Shown in pieces: positions 4,612-16,444 of a stretch of DNA of 26,843 bases. A program made the translations under genes and the position numbers. The notes below the pieces were generated by a model, which saw nothing but the letters and a program-made list of their open reading frames with translations, was not told the origin of the DNA and made no database searches. This stretch comes from a virus, in the IMG/VR virus record IMGVR_UViG_3300035070_003434, positions 1 to 26,843 of that record; one strand, given 5' to 3'. How positions within the stretch are numbered: position 1 is the first letter of the stretch; every line of letters begins with the position of its first letter.

Positions 4612-5294
4612 GACGGCTTGACATCCGCAAGGGTGATGCACAACGTGCCATCGTCGAGCCACCGATGCGAAACGGTGACCTGCGACACGCCGCAAACCAT
4701 GATGCTCGGCGTCGCGCCGGCAGCGCGCAGCCGCTTCGATCTTGCGTTGAGCCCTTCGTCGATCACGACCGGTTCACCCACCGTCTTGACGATCGGCTCA
4801 CCCATCGACGCAAGCTGGTCATCAGCCCACGCCAGCGCATCCCGACGTCCAGGCACCGCAGCTATGCCCATGATCTTGCCGCGGCACTCGTGCAGCAGGT
4901 GCACCATGCGCTTCCGCATCGCCTCGACCAATGGCTCGTGCCCCGTGCAGGCCTCGCGGGCTTCGTCGCGCTGCTGGCGCATCGTGTTGCATTCCTTCCG
5001 CAGCACTTCGTTCTGCTTGCGCAGATTATGGCTGGCGTTGGCCGCGGTCAGGCGCTGGTCGATCGCCTCGTCGCGTTGCTTGCGCAGATTATCGCGCTCG
5101 GCGATCGCTTCGTTGCGCTGCTTGATCACGGCTTCGCGTTCGCGCCAGCGAGCTTCGTACAACTCACGCGACACCGAACTACCCGCGAGCGTGAACAGCA
5201 GCCGCAGCTCGTCTCGGTCCATTTCGAAGCGCCAGTCGGGTGACTTCAGGCGCCGGTCGAGGTCTTCGTAGTCGATTCGTTCCATTGGGATCAC
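4608..5294 (-). CDS. Coiled-coil early protein of unknown function (228 aa)
   Basis: GTG at 5294 overlaps the preceding TGA (GTGA). An in-frame ATG at 5285 is an alternative start. Residues about 40-125 form a long charged coiled coil with repeated QRDEAI-type units (AVIKQRNEAIAERDNLRKQ and similar). The C-terminal 90 residues are mixed alpha/beta (PIVKTVGEPVVIDEGLNARS ... SQVTVSHRWLDDGTLCITL). It resembles Ea22-like phage early proteins only in composition. It lies directly after the RusA-like gene and before a zinc-ribbon protein. Function is unknown. Confidence 0.85.
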   Translation of the reverse strand: MIPMERIDYEDLDRRLKSPDWRFEMDRDELRLLFTLAGSSVSRELYEARWREREAVIKQRNEAIAERDNLRKQRDEAIDQRLTAANASHNLRKQNEVLRKECNTMRQQRDEAREACTGHEPLVEAMRKRMVHLLHECRGKIMGIAAVPGRRDALAWADDQLASMGEPIVKTVGEPVVIDEGLNARSKRLRAAGATPSIMVCGVSQVTVSHRWLDDGTLCITLADVKPS

Positions 5295-5959
5295 CACAGC
5301 TCCGGTTGCAGGTTGGATGGTTCGCCGACGTTGCGCCACACGCGCAGGTCGGCGACCTGGTTGTCGTTGTGGTAGGCGATGCCTTGCACGGCATCGAGCA
5401 CCAGCTCGGGCACGTTGGTCACGTCGCGGCGCCGTCCGGTCGGCCCCTTGCCGCTCGGCTTCGGCCCGCGCTTCTCGATCACCACGTCGGCGGTGTCGTT
5501 CTTCACGTTGTGCACCACGGTCACGCCGACGTCTTCGTCGGGCAGCAGCGGCCGACGTTCGCTGAACGCCTGCGGCGCTTGCCGGCGCAGCGCGTCGACC
5601 GCCTCCTCGATGATCTTCTCTCGCGCGTGCCTCGCCTCGTCGGACATCGAGGAGCCCAGGTGCCCGGTCGGCTTCCGGCACTTCGGGCAGACGGCACCCG
5701 TGCGGAAGATGCGGCGACTGTTCTTCGCCGCCGGCGGGGTCGGCACCGTGAACCGCAGCGTCGGAACCTCGATCGCGGCGTCGGCGATCGGGTCGGCGAA
5801 CAGCTGCGCCGCTGTCGGCCGGCGTTCGCGGATCGCGCGCTCGATGTTGCCGGCCAGGCCGATCAGCTTGGCGACGGTGATCGTCACGGCGTCGATGTGC
5901 GCACGGTGCTGGATCGCGCGCAGGTCGGCGGCGATGCGGGCGAGGAGTTCCTGGTTCAC
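5291..5959 (-). CDS. rusA: RusA-like Holliday junction resolvase with N-terminal extension and CPKC insert
   Basis: GTG at 5959 overlaps the upstream TGA (GTGA) and has a GAGGGGTGG Shine-Dalgarno. About 70 N-terminal residues form a helical extension. The RusA-type domain starts near LRFTVPTPPAAKNSRRI. The catalytic region has the family pattern of spaced aspartates: RRRDVTNVPELVLDAVQG, then YHNDNQV near the C-terminus. RusA enzymes (about 120 residues in E. coli) cleave four-way junctions as dimers and need these Asp residues. Between the N-terminal strand and the first helix there is a CPKC motif with a nearby His, an insert I do not know in classical RusA. The protein ends LQPELW, one of four (D/E)LW tails here. 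Together with the nuclease and RecT genes it would complete a recombination set. Confidence 0.88.
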   Translation of the reverse strand: MNQELLARIAADLRAIQHRAHIDAVTITVAKLIGLAGNIERAIRERRPTAAQLFADPIADAAIEVPTLRFTVPTPPAAKNSRRIFRTGAVCPKCRKPTGHLGSSMSDEARHAREKIIEEAVDALRRQAPQAFSERRPLLPDEDVGVTVVHNVKNDTADVVIEKRGPKPSGKGPTGRRRDVTNVPELVLDAVQGIAYHNDNQVADLRVWRNVGEPSNLQPELW

Positions 5960-7323
5960 TTCCCACCCCTCGCCAGTTCGCGGCGGCATAGCTCGGCGAC
6001 GGCACGCCACAGCTCGTTGGTGCCTTCACCGCCGGCCCACTGCGCCAGTTCGCGCAGCACCTCGTCGCCGTCGCGCGTCGCGGCGTCCGGCTTCGGCTCC
6101 GCGTGCTGGGCGGGAAGGGCGGCGAGGCGGTCAGTGCAGAAGCTCGCCACCGCCTGGATGTTGGGGTAGCCCGCTGGGCGAAACTGGAACATCCACGACT
6201 GCACCGCCTCCAGCTCCCGCCTCGCCATCGCGGCCTGGTCGGCTCGGGCGGCGGCGAGGTCGCGCTCCAGATGCGCCACGCGCGCCTCGGCTGACTTCGC
6301 CAGTCCTTGCTCGACCTTCTGCGATGACTCAGCGAACTGGTGAGCTTTCACGGCGGCGGCGAGGTCGGCTTGCAGGCGGGCGTTCTCGGCGCGGAGCCGG
6401 TCGATCTCGGCCCGCAACTCCCGCAGCTTCGCGTCGCCGTCCTGTGGCGCTGGCGGTTCGGGCTTCGGCGATCGGACTCCGCTAGCCGCACACCCCATTG
6501 ATGCAGCGTCGACGAGTAGCGCCTCTTGCATCTCTTGCCATGCAGTCGTCCACATGCCTCCGTCACGTCGCCAACAGACGATCGCACAAGCATCTTGAAG
6601 CAAGTGGCGTAGTCGACGAACCTCGGCCAGCTTCGCGTCGCCGTCCGGCGCGGATCGCATGAGGGCGACGCCTTCGTCGATCCATTCGCGTGTATCGTCG
6701 AGTGTCATGCCGCCGCTGGAGCGGGCCGACCAATAGATGTCTCTCCATGCCGCGATCTTCGCCTCGTGCTTCGGCGACGCCTTCCGCGCCGCCATCGCCG
6801 CCGCCAAGGAGACACCATGACCAACCAAGACCCCATCGCCGTGCTCGGCGGCATCGAGAAGTCGCGCAGACTCATCGTCGAGTGGCGAGCCGAGTGGACT
6901 GGCGACAGCAAGAGGGCTGAGGAGTGCATTGGTGGTCTCCTTGGCGGCGGCGATGGCACGCAGCAGCGCGCCGGATTCGGTGTCGTTCATGGCGAAGCCC
7001 TTGAAGAACGCGGGCGCAGTGCTGCGTTGCGCCGACTCCAGTTGCCAGACGATCGGCTCCAGCGCAGCCAGCAGCTCGTCGCGTTGGGTGCGGAGCCGGT
7101 CCCGCTCCTCTCGTAGCGAAGCGATCTCGACCATGCGGTCCATGTGCGTGGCGTCGATCCTCTCGCCGATCTCAGCGGCTGCACGCAGGGAGTCCCGCTC
7201 CTCGGCGGCGTCGAGGCGAGCCCAGATGCGCTTCCGCAGCGCCGCGATGTCGAGGTCAGCCATTGCGTGCGCCTCCAAGGCAGATCGGATGTCAAGCACG
7301 GGAATTTGGTTGGGGGTGGTCAT
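5956..7323 (-). CDS. 455-aa coiled-coil early protein, Ea22-like, interrupted by an apparently inverted segment
   Basis: ATG at 7323 has an excellent AAGGAG Shine-Dalgarno. Residues 1-129 look like one Ea22-like early protein (coiled coil, then MNDTESGALLRAIAAAKET). Residues 130-170 are atypical, with only 22 of 40 codons ending in G/C by hand count. Residues about 185-455 hold repeated modules (DGDAKLAEVRRLR, DGDAKLRELRAE, DGDEVLRELAQW), long coiled coils and a short conserved end. The middle coincides exactly with the 121-bp spacer of a 23-bp inverted repeat, and the plus strand there carries a better coding signal with its own ribosome-binding site. The frame stays open throughout, so the fused protein may be made, but it probably derives from two or more genes. 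Its stop overlaps the resolvase start. Function is unknown. Confidence 0.7.
   Translation of the reverse strand: MTTPNQIPVLDIRSALEAHAMADLDIAALRKRIWARLDAAEERDSLRAAAEIGERIDATHMDRMVEIASLREERDRLRTQRDELLAALEPIVWQLESAQRSTAPAFFKGFAMNDTESGALLRAIAAAKETTNALLSPLAVASPLGSPLDDESARLLDAAEHGDGVLVGHGVSLAAAMAARKASPKHEAKIAAWRDIYWSARSSGGMTLDDTREWIDEGVALMRSAPDGDAKLAEVRRLRHLLQDACAIVCWRRDGGMWTTAWQEMQEALLVDAASMGCAASGVRSPKPEPPAPQDGDAKLRELRAEIDRLRAENARLQADLAAAVKAHQFAESSQKVEQGLAKSAEARVAHLERDLAAARADQAAMARRELEAVQSWMFQFRPAGYPNIQAVASFCTDRLAALPAQHAEPKPDAATRDGDEVLRELAQWAGGEGTNELWRAVAELCRRELARGGK
6791..6957. repeat. 23-bp perfect inverted repeat (6791-6813 and 6935-6957) around a 121-bp spacer
   Basis: Bases 6791-6813 on the plus strand are identical to the reverse complement of 6935-6957, a 23/23 match. 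The spacer 6814-6934 carries, on the plus strand, ATG at 6817 preceded by AAGGAGACACC and 39 codons (MTNQDPIAVLGG...), of which 32 end in G/C. The minus-strand reading of the same spacer has 22 of 40. If the spacer is flipped in thought, the gene starting at 7323 would end ...AIAAAKETP with its TGA overlapping that ATG (ATGA), exactly the junction type used throughout this operon. This looks like a past or ongoing inversion. Confidence 0.85.
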
Positions 7324-7334
7324 GGTGTCTCCTT
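6806..7334. repeat. Duplicated translation-start module in inverted orientation (6806-6823 and 7317-7334)
   Basis: The 18-mer AAGGAGACACCATGACCA occurs on the plus strand at 6806-6823 and on the minus strand at 7334-7317, where it is the ribosome-binding site and start of the 5956-7323 gene. The copy at 6806 faces the wrong way relative to all neighbouring genes. Only the two short arms are the repeat. The bases between are ordinary sequence apart from the 23-bp inverted repeat. Confidence 0.85.
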
Positions 7335-7454: not shown

Positions 7455-8885
7455 CTACGACTCGCTCTCGACGTTGCGCGCGACCTCGAGCAGTTGATCC
7501 GGTGTCAGTTCGTCCAGGCTTGCCGGCTTCGCCGTCAGGCCGAGCACTTGCGCCACCTGCGTGTAGGCGGCGTCCTTGGTGAGCTTGGCGGCCTTGAAGT
7601 GATCGTTCAGTCGGCGCCGGAGCGTCATCTTCACGAACACCACCGCGGCCGTCTGGTCGCCGAACACGCGCCAGCGGTCGCCCGTCCACTGTTCGATCGG
7701 CTTGCCGACGGCGAAGCGCAGAGCGCCCTTCTCGGGGTCGTCAGGCTCCCACTCGAACCCGAACAGCACCACGGTGCTGCTGTCGAGCGACCAGTCGCGG
7801 TCGGCGCGCGCAGCTGCCACCTGGTCGACCTGCGGTGCCTCGGCGGCCGGCTCCGGCGTCTCGGCTTCCGGTTCTTCGGCGTCGGCTTCGCCGGCGTCCT
7901 TCACCTGGAAGTCGGGGTCGACGAACGGCGCCAGCTCTGCGTGCGGATGCACGATCGCGAACACCTCGGCGGCCTGGTCGCCGGTGATGTCCTCGCACCG
8001 GATCCACGTCTCCGCGCCGCTGCTGTCGTCGATCGCAATGCACACCTGCAGCTCGAGTCCTTCGCCCCACGTGTCGCCGACGCGCCCCGTCTTCGGCCGC
8101 TTCTTCGTGTGCCGAGCCTTGCGCTTGCGCGGTGCTTCTGGCTCGAACCCGTCGCCGGTGCTGACCGTGTCCGGTTCGGCGGCCGGCGCCGCCGGCGGCA
8201 CCTCGCGCACCGTGAACTCGGCCGGCTTCATGTCAGCGTCGCCGTCTTCGTACAGGTCGGCGGCGAGCGACACACCTTCCAGCACGTCGGCGAAAGCGTC
8301 GCGGATCGTGAACGCCCTCGCGCGGTTGTAGAGCATGCGGTCCGGCGACGTCACCCACGGCGTCGGTTGGCCTTCGCGGCCTGTCTTTCCCCACAGCTTC
8401 GCCAGCTTCGCGTCGTCCACGGAGTACGAACGCTCGACCGTTCGCACCTGCCCGCTCGGCAGCTTGCGCTGGATGCTGACGGTCCAGCAGCGGTCGAGCC
8501 CGGCGATGGTGCCGGTGGCCTTCTCGTCGATGGACACCAGCGAAGGGTGCTGCAGGATCATCGCGACCGGCGCGTCGCCCCACAGCGTCGGGCGACCATT
8601 GATGACGGCGATGGACTTCAGGCACGCCAGCGGCGACAGGCCCAGCGGCAGCCCGGTCGCCAGCGCCACGAACACGCTCGCCGGTTCGCCCTGGAACTGC
8701 TGGGGCACGAGCTTGCTCGCCGCGAAGCGCGAACACATCCGTTCCAGCATGTCCCACACCTCTGGCACCAGCCACCAGCTGCGCGTCAGCTGCCCGGTCT
8801 GCTGCATCTGCGCCAGCTGCTGCGCGCTCTGTTGCGTCCTCGCCGGCATCATCGCCTGCACTGCCATCTTTGCATCGTCTGTCAT
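7455..8885 (-). CDS. recT: RecT-family single-strand annealing protein with about 250-residue C-terminal extension
   Basis: Start taken at ATG 8885; GTG at 8897 is an in-frame alternative. Residues about 25-225 match the RecT family closely: ATGLPLGLSPLACLKSIAVI, NGRPTLWGDAP, SYSVDDAKLAKLWGKTG and a final RMLYNRARAFTIRDAFADVL. RecT proteins anneal complementary single strands and work with an exonuclease during phage recombination. Here the upstream gene is a RecB/Cas4-like nuclease. Normal RecT proteins are about 260-340 residues. This one is 476. The extra part has a basic patch (RKRKARHTKKRPKTGR), a compact domain (LELQVCIAIDDSSGAETWIR...), an acidic Glu/Pro/Ala linker and a helical end (LTPDQLLEVARN). 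It ends with TAG at 7455 and is followed by the terminator-like element. Confidence 0.93.
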   Translation of the reverse strand: MTDDAKMAVQAMMPARTQQSAQQLAQMQQTGQLTRSWWLVPEVWDMLERMCSRFAASKLVPQQFQGEPASVFVALATGLPLGLSPLACLKSIAVINGRPTLWGDAPVAMILQHPSLVSIDEKATGTIAGLDRCWTVSIQRKLPSGQVRTVERSYSVDDAKLAKLWGKTGREGQPTPWVTSPDRMLYNRARAFTIRDAFADVLEGVSLAADLYEDGDADMKPAEFTVREVPPAAPAAEPDTVSTGDGFEPEAPRKRKARHTKKRPKTGRVGDTWGEGLELQVCIAIDDSSGAETWIRCEDITGDQAAEVFAIVHPHAELAPFVDPDFQVKDAGEADAEEPEAETPEPAAEAPQVDQVAAARADRDWSLDSSTVVLFGFEWEPDDPEKGALRFAVGKPIEQWTGDRWRVFGDQTAAVVFVKMTLRRRLNDHFKAAKLTKDAAYTQVAQVLGLTAKPASLDELTPDQLLEVARNVESES

Positions 8886-8976
8886 GGTCGACCACACTCG
8901 GCCCCCGCGTGTTTCGGTTGCGCCCTTGTCGATGCCGGCGGGGGTCGGCGGCGTCGCAGCGCGGTAGGGAATGAGA

Positions 8977-9828
8977 TCAGGAAACGACTCTGCCGCCGTG
9001 CCTCGCCTCGCAGTCCACGGCGAACCCGCACCAGCGGCGCGAACACAGTTGGTGGTTGCGGTTCGGCACCCAGTCGCCAGACGCGTAGGCGCGCGCGATG
9101 GTGCGGCGTGCAATCTCCATGCGGTGCAGCACGTGCTCGACCGCGCCGTCGCTGACGATCGTGCGAACCACCTGCACCTTCGGCGTCACCAGGTCGGTGC
9201 GCATGTTGTGGAACTGGAACAGCGGCACGTTCAGACCGCGCGTGTAGATCGCCGGCTGCGCGCTGCGCAGCACCTCGGCCTCGCCGTAGGTGCGCCGCGA
9301 TGCCTTCTGGTCGATGCACGTCGCCGCGACCTTCACGCCAGGAGAGTCGACGGACGCCAGCAAGTCGACCTTGCCGAACACGCGCCACGTCGTCGCGATG
9401 CCGCATGCCTCGTCGAGATCCTTGCGCGCGCTGGTGACCTCGAACTCGATCGGAACCTGCGGTTCGCGCAACGGTTGCACGTAGACGGCGACGCGGTCGC
9501 GCCACGTCACCACGCCGGCGGCGCCGGTGTCGAGCATCTTGCCGGGGTGCTCGTCGACGCCCCACTCCTCGACCTTGCGCGATTCGATCGCCCACCAGTC
9601 GGCGAACAGGTCGCGCACTTCGTTGGCACTGTCGGTCTCGCGCGTGCGGAGCTTGGTGGCGTAGACGTTGTTCGCGCACGCGTCGAACGCGTTGCCGAAC
9701 GCCTGCGCGGCGCCTGGCGGCCGGCGGCGGCCCAGCACGTAGCGCTGGAAGAACGCCTCGGGGCAGCGCTCGACCAGCTCGAGCTTCGACGGCGTGAAGG
9801 TTTCCAGGACTTGCTCGAGCGTCTTCAT
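8977..9828 (-). CDS. RecB/Cas4-like PD-(D/E)XK nuclease with probable Fe-S cluster
   Basis: ATG at 9828 overlaps the upstream TGA (ATGA). The 283-residue protein opens with the PSKLELVERCPEAFFQRYVLG pattern typical of PDDEXK_1/Cas4/AddB-type nucleases. The active site is visible as GKVDLLAS followed by CIDQKAS (Asp, then D-x-K). Cys22 plus three cysteines near the C-terminus (LCSRRWCGFAVDC) form the 1+3 spacing of a 4Fe-4S cluster in Cas4/AddB-like nucleases. The predicted role is 5'-end resection to make single strands for the RecT protein encoded just downstream. The gap to recT (8886-8976) contains complementary CCCCCGC/GCGGGGG arms with a loop of about 28 bases and no U-run. Confidence 0.9.
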   Translation of the reverse strand: MKTLEQVLETFTPSKLELVERCPEAFFQRYVLGRRRPPGAAQAFGNAFDACANNVYATKLRTRETDSANEVRDLFADWWAIESRKVEEWGVDEHPGKMLDTGAAGVVTWRDRVAVYVQPLREPQVPIEFEVTSARKDLDEACGIATTWRVFGKVDLLASVDSPGVKVAATCIDQKASRRTYGEAEVLRSAQPAIYTRGLNVPLFQFHNMRTDLVTPKVQVVRTIVSDGAVEHVLHRMEIARRTIARAYASGDWVPNRNHQLCSRRWCGFAVDCEARHGGRVVS

Positions 9829-15331: not shown

Positions 15332-15574
15332 CTACTGCCGCGGTGCCCGACGCACCACGACGTTGTCCCACGGCTCGGGGTGCCGCACCCACGGCGGCGC
15401 GCACTCGCGGTCGACAGCGGCCTGCAGAATCGCGCTCACATCGAACGCCGGGGTCGGGGTTGTACTCGACCGGCCTGGCCTGCTCCGGCGCGCCGCAGCG
15501 GTAGCGGCGGCCGTCGCGCGTGACGTGGAAGCCTTCGACCAGCGGCATGCGGCCTTGGCGGCAGTAGGCGTCAT
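15332..15574 (-). pseudogene. Small cysteine-containing gene broken by one or two frameshifts
   Basis: ATG at 15574 overlaps the upstream TGA (ATGA), and that frame stops at TAG 15334-15332. Its last third reads like a real protein (FDVSAILQAAVDRECAPPWV, then RHPEPWDNVVV). The middle codes convincingly in another frame (DAYCRQGRMPLVEGFHVTRD, then GRRYRCGAPEQARPVEYNPD), with GC-rich third positions and two cysteines. One extra base after the ATG and one base fewer in the GG near 15446-15447 would join all parts into one frame. An internal ATG at 15548 would remove the need for the first change. It is either a decayed gene or carries sequence errors. Confidence 0.55.
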
Positions 15575-15906
15575 GGTTTGGCCTCCGGGGTCTGTTTGGC
15601 GACCCCCTTCGCCTCACGCCACTTCGCGTGCAGTCGGTTGAGCGCCGAGGCGAGGGCCTCATGGAGAAGTGCCACCTCGTCACAGTAGTCCTCCTCGGTC
15701 AAGGGTTCGCTCAGTCGCTCCCAACATTCGCCGCCCATGGCGTCGTGCGATAGCCATTCGACGCGGAACGAGTTGAACCCTTCCTCAGGCTCCTCTTGGA
15801 CCAGGCGAAGGTACCGATCCCCAATCTCCTGACCCTGCCAAAGAAGGCGCGGAAATACAGGTTCTCCGTCGTGCACCGGGATGAGGTCGACCCGTGGATC
15901 GCTCAT
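15571..15906 (-). CDS. Acidic small protein of unknown function (111 aa)
   Basis: ATG at 15906 overlaps the upstream TGA (ATGA). The protein begins MSDPRVDLIPVHDGEPVFPR and continues with aromatic, acidic stretches (EEPEEGFNSFRVEWLSHDAM). It then has a helical region (EDYCDEVALLHEALASALNR) and a basic, polar tail. No motif is recognised. It is co-transcribed with the HTH gene just upstream and could modulate it, but nothing in the sequence shows this. Confidence 0.8.
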   Translation of the reverse strand: MSDPRVDLIPVHDGEPVFPRLLWQGQEIGDRYLRLVQEEPEEGFNSFRVEWLSHDAMGGECWERLSEPLTEEDYCDEVALLHEALASALNRLHAKWREAKGVAKQTPEAKP

Positions 15907-16169
15907 GCGCGTACCTTCGCCTCGCGCCACAGCCGCAGCACTTCGGCCAGCTTCGGCGCTTGCGACCCGTCGACCGGCTTGCCCAGCGCGAAGGCGAGCT
16001 TGCGCAGCAGGTCGTTCGGCGGGCGCTTGTGCTGCAGCTCGAGGAGGTTCCACAGCGATTGCCGCGACACGCCGAGCACCGCCGCCAGTTCCTCGCGCGT
16101 GCCGGCGAACAGCCCGACGAGGTCTTCCCACGCGCGCGGCTTGGCCACCGCCTTCGGTGCGGCGCGCAT
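15903..16169 (-). CDS. Small helix-turn-helix DNA-binding protein (88 aa)
   Basis: ATG at 16169 overlaps the previous stop by one base (TGATG). Residues about 22-60 carry an HTH: FAGTREELAAVLGVSRQSLW followed by NLLELQHKRPPNDLLRKLAF, in the style of XRE/Fis-like bacterial domains where 'GVSRQSLW' is the turn and recognition helix. A stand-alone DNA-binding protein this short in a phage is usually a repressor or activator. Candidate targets in the window are the TTGAC-type promoter at 16453-16481 and the palindrome at 14613-14648, but no binding site can be assigned. Confidence 0.83.
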   Translation of the reverse strand: MRAAPKAVAKPRAWEDLVGLFAGTREELAAVLGVSRQSLWNLLELQHKRPPNDLLRKLAFALGKPVDGSQAPKLAEVLRLWREAKVRA

Positions 16170-16444
16170 CAGAACGCCCCCGCGACGGCGACGCCGATCG
16201 CAACGCCGATGGCGACGCCGATGGTGCCGACCAGCCACGCCGCGGCGCCGAACCCCTCGCGCTCGGCCTCGGCGTCGGTGTCGCCCTGGCCGCCGGCGAT
16301 CAGGGGCAGCAGGTCGCGGTGCACCGGGCGGCCGTGCACGACGCAACTCGGGCAGCGGTGCCGCACGCCGGATGCTCCGATGACCAGGCCGAACCCGCCG
16401 CAGCGGATACTGGGGAGTCTCTCACGTTCCGCTTGCTTGCTCAT
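16169..16444 (-). CDS. Small Cys-containing membrane protein, possibly leaderless (91 aa)
   Basis: ATG at 16444 lies only about 8 bases beyond the -10 element of the promoter at 16453-16481, so the mRNA would start at or just before the ATG and have no room for a Shine-Dalgarno. The N-terminal half has Cys15 and a CPSC pair (Cys31, Cys34), then a polar acidic stretch. Residues 66-91 form a Gly/Ala/Val membrane segment with a GVAIGVAIGVAVAG repeat. The cytoplasmic domain may bind zinc. Function is unknown. It heads the operon leading to the HTH gene. Confidence 0.78.
   Translation of the reverse strand: MSKQAERERLPSIRCGGFGLVIGASGVRHRCPSCVVHGRPVHRDLLPLIAGGQGDTDAEAEREGFGAAAWLVGTIGVAIGVAIGVAVAGAF

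Follow-up and report, generated by a model that had tools for sequence, protein, structure and literature searches.

An apparently reversed gene start between perfect inverted repeats in a phage early gene, a probable scar of a short template-switch inversion

The host ORF and its inverted repeat

The window (the whole stretch of viral DNA that was analyzed, 26,843 nucleotides) contains early recombination genes at 7455-8891, 8977-9828 and 5291-5956, encoding a RecT-like annealing protein, a PD-(D/E)XK nuclease and a RusA-like resolvase, respectively. Between the RecT-like and RusA-like genes lies a minus-strand open reading frame of 455 codons, here called the host ORF, which contains a 23-bp inverted repeat (Table 1). 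The two arms match at 23 of 23 positions in inverted orientation and are separated by 121 nt, exactly as placed in a preliminary description of this DNA. No longer inverted repeat within 1 kb occurs in the window, the runner-up being 18, and the longest in the shuffled controls did not exceed 17 (n = 120; 60 fourth-order Markov sequences and 60 codon shuffles); the 23-bp repeat is beyond chance. An imperfect repeat extends past the inner edges of the arms (ACCATG versus CACCAATG). The hairpin that the arms can form is stronger than expected (z -7.5); a function for this hairpin was considered and set aside, as a strong fold is expected from the arms alone and nothing else points to such a role.

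Both arms consist of gene-end codons together with ribosome-binding site (RBS) sequence. The left arm and the spacer together make one coherent block of 144 nt, comprising the end of a gene (A), an RBS and the start of a second gene (B), in reverse orientation: the plus strand reads ...GCC ATC GCC GCC GCC AAG GAG ACA CCA TGA, overlapping ATG ACC AAC CAA. The right arm carries that gene end in the operon direction. On the minus strand the order is therefore arm, reversed B, reversed arm and downstream sequence.

Table 1. Positions of the host ORF, the inverted repeat and the two related gene starts
Feature	Positions	Strand	Remarks
Host ORF, 455 aa, between RecT-like and RusA-like genes	5956..7323	-	Mosaic; coiled-coil C-terminal half
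RBS and start of host ORF (AAGGAGACACCATGACCA)	7317..7334	-	Identical to plus-strand 6806-6823
Module A, first 131 codons of host ORF	6931..7323	-	Flipped in silico, would end ...AIAAAKETP*
Right arm of 23-bp inverted repeat	6935..6957	-	Encodes AIAAAKET in frame with A and carries RBS-like AAGGAGAC; probably the copy that was there first
Spacer; probably the start of displaced gene B with its first 39 codons (MTNQDPIAVLGGIEKSRRLIVEWRAEWTGDSKRAEECIG)	6814..6934	+	121 nt
RBS and probable start of displaced gene B	6806..6823	+	18/18 to host gene start, inverted
Left arm of 23-bp inverted repeat	6791..6813	+	Probably the new copy
Downstream part of host ORF (...ARKASPKHEAKIAAWRDIYW...)	5956..6790	-	Minus frame coding again, from coding statistics

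Probable gene start and coding signal on the plus strand

An RBS (AAGGAG, 6806-6811) and an ATG at 6817 precede a plus-strand frame in which 32 of 39 codons end in G or C, and a recount bore out each of these earlier readings. The count for the minus frame over the spacer needed a small correction, from 22 to 23 of 40. Among trusted minus-strand genes other than the host ORF (GC3 0.83; 934 windows of 40 codons) the minimum was 24 per 40 codons. Within the host ORF, the number of G/C-ending codons per ten is 5, 6, 6 and 5 exactly across minus codons 131-170, which correspond to the spacer; a second low-GC3 zone lies at codons 231-290, so that low GC3 alone is not unique to the spacer.

Over 6817-6936 the plus frame had a coding log-likelihood of +7.2 and the minus frame one of -2.8. 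A lead this large, 9.9 nats, was reached in that antisense frame by 2 of 1000 overlapping windows taken from other genes. In a search for the best antisense segment, plus-strand 6805-6912 came out top among trusted genes with 14.7 nats, followed by 11.9 and 11.6; scores above 14.7 nats were confined to 15.5-16.4 kb and 19.5 kb, where the ORFs or 5′ extensions concerned are doubtful and were excluded by our own judgement. The codon signal is thus real but modest by itself, as it comes from only 39 codons and some other genes reach 11-12 nats. Separately, the overlapping ORFs at 15571-16346 include plus-strand frames that score far above the minus-strand frames in use, and the starts or the strand of these genes need re-annotation.

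The 18 nt that span the plus-strand RBS and ATG are an inverted copy of the start of the host gene itself, identical at all 18 positions, where the best other match anywhere in the window is 12 of 18. The two longest inverted repeats of the window hence both involve the plus-strand block 6791-6823. This second match does not appear in the preliminary description. Because of it, the likeliest content of the spacer is a genuine gene start of the operon, now lying backwards, and a displaced gene start appears likely once the modest codon signal is combined with the 18-nt match.

If instead the present orientation were ancestral, the minus-strand protein would be real throughout and the plus-strand start fortuitous. 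The minus frame is indeed open across all 455 codons, and the low-GC3 zone further along the same ORF would fit such a protein, but an 18/18 identity to a gene start centred on precisely the RBS and ATG does not, nor does a plus-over-minus score that exceeds that in any trusted gene, and we regard this explanation as very unlikely. Of in-place inversions of 121 bp in the same phase, 67% left an ORF open, so an open frame of 455 codons needs no special cause; selection for an open ORF was for this reason dropped as an argument. Past inversion, a switch and an artefact had all been left open before. A past inversion of what appears to be a real gene start is now well supported by the codon statistics, the RBS and the 18-nt match, while the switch has lost ground for the reasons given below.

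Origin of the reversed block

Flipping the spacer in silico reproduced the arrangement described earlier: A, with 131 codons, ends in ...AIAAAKETP* and its TGA overlaps the ATG of B (ATGA), giving a new start, and flipped B is offset from the downstream frame by one base and runs out of frame for about 80 codons over downstream coding sequence. The ATGA junction had been said to be used throughout the operon, which was an overstatement, as the junctions vary among GTGA, TGATG, ATGA and gaps.

If the spacer inverted back and forth between the arms within the phage population, one state would give the 455-aa protein and the other the 131-aa A plus a newly started B. Such a switch would account for the perfect 23-bp inverted repeat, for the ATGA junction and RBS of the flipped state and for the hairpin strength, and it resembles invertons and invertase-driven phase variation, in which a short segment lies between inverted repeats and a flip would alter reading frames. 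However, it differs from these systems in several respects. Only the present orientation has been seen. No resolvase/invertase or integrase domain is present in the window, a genome fragment, where searches for serine and tyrosine recombinases (PF00239 and PF00589) gave no match; the arms are already accounted for by gene-end codons and an RBS; and, where an inverton has coherent genes in both states, flipped B is out of frame downstream and no continuous downstream gene is restored. We therefore consider an invertible switch improbable. A live inversion of this kind, inside a gene of a phage early operon, would be unusual. In a variant of this idea, the gene would toggle reversibly between the 455-aa fusion and A plus B, either through a recombinase from the host or encoded at a distance, or through template switching at the 23-bp arms coupled to replication, which we judge highly unlikely.

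We favor a different origin and think it probable that the block is the scar of a past short inversion by template switch, in which the end of A, the RBS and the start of B were copied in reverse. In this model, two genes would have overlapped by ATGA on the ancestral minus strand: the short A, of 131 aa with AIAAAKETP* at its end, and B, with an RBS (AAGGAGAC) of its own. On reaching the end of A during replication, the growing strand would have jumped to the opposite strand, about 120 nt farther on, and read back through B and the end of A before it returned to its own template. In the product, the end of A would be followed by reversed B, then by a reversed copy of that end and then by the downstream sequence. 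Since reversed B by chance lacks a stop in the frame of A, A would now be fused, via antisense B, to the downstream sequence in a 455-codon ORF, and the fused product may be expressed. The anatomy of the block suggests that the inversion event itself created the 23-bp repeat, which would then be a by-product of copying, or a shorter imperfect repeat evened out, rather than a recombination site; the inner-edge extension noted above is compatible with a short imperfect-repeat seed. If the repeat was made by the template switch, the frame puzzle disappears, since no prior repeat is needed and sequence may have been lost at the return point.

The block is, as such a mechanism predicts, the reverse complement of a sequence that is sensible in the other orientation. 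In the four-point model, template switches often make perfect inverted repeats (PMC7954356), and both the creation of perfect inverted repeats and the inversion of spacers by template switching are documented (PMC7954356, PMC8604942). The local reverse-complement copy that yields a perfect inverted repeat is the feature shared with short-range template-switch mutation, including quasipalindrome-associated mutation (PMC7954356, PMC8604942), and a further paper (PMC7202029) likewise describes a reverse-complement copy that makes an inverted repeat. In yeast, a spacer inversion is reported in which a short repeat also grew from 5 to 16 bp (PMC8604942). In contrast to those cases, the block here is about 144 nt long and contains a gene boundary, and its four switch points could be fixed only with the ancestral sequence. 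An inversion of 121 bp is also large beside in-gene spacer inversions in yeast that altered just 2-5 bp (PMC8604942), which counts against the template-switch reading.

The same anatomy would fit a one-off inversion between inverted arms that existed beforehand. Either recombination or intermolecular template switching would have driven it, with an indel arising later, and there are documented cases of spacers inverted between perfect repeats already in place (PMC8604942). This route is less economical: it needs a chance reverse copy of the end of A and the RBS to have lain downstream of B beforehand, as well as a later frame-shifting indel, and we think it very improbable.

An amplification chimera, or an assembler that joined the block backwards, would mean that the real genome carries A and B in tandem. 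The record is a single virus contig, and 85% of 475 chimeras formed in multiple displacement amplification were inverted (PMC1855051), joined, like the arms here, at short complementary sequences (PMC1855051). Those chimeras, however, have a single junction and a deletion of the intervening sequence, whereas an artefact here would need two junctions separated by about 144 nt, the second leading back to the original strand; nor is flipped B cleanly joined by the downstream frame. An artefact appears unlikely.

Should the template-switch origin be correct, this locus would be a readable case of one replication error that reversed a gene boundary and fused parts of neighboring phage genes in a single open frame. 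It also carries a warning for annotation, as the 455-aa ORF is probably in part antisense sequence.

Relatives and patchwork of the host ORF

Viral contigs, genomes, and phage and plasmid records were searched with the 455-aa protein and with modules of it, as well as with the RecT-like and RusA-like neighbors, and returned no locus that spans the spacer and no relative with the ancestral gene order. For the putative displaced gene B (MTNQDPIAVLGGIEKSRRLIVEW) no homologue was detected, and family libraries gave nothing. Both results weigh against the template-switch reading. Degenerate DNA patterns for VEWRAEW and MTNxDPIAxL were also tried and discarded, having yielded four chance matches and none, respectively.

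The sole relative, a contig (L006/L011), matches only the C-terminal module of the host ORF. DNA identity is 93% over 6112-6262 and 98% over 6352-6396, the matched part of the relative being L011 3955-4134; there was no further DNA match in the 10 kb of this contig that were compared, and modules A, B and C are unmatched in its record. The two matched pieces adjoin in the relative, where the window has about 90 extra bases between short direct repeats of GACCTCGCCGCCGCC. This C-terminal coiled-coil module, shared with an otherwise unmatched phage contig, appears to be a recently exchanged module. Further upstream in the host ORF, an 18-nt direct repeat, GACGGCGACGCGAAGCTG (DGDAKL), occurs at 6628-6645 and 6424-6441 and flanks a low-GC3 stretch, which is possibly an inserted or duplicated module. 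Together, the shared C-terminal module with its difference of about 90 bases and the DGDAKL repeat indicate a patchwork make-up of the host gene. Such a make-up agrees with a locus prone to rearrangement but is no proof of mechanism.
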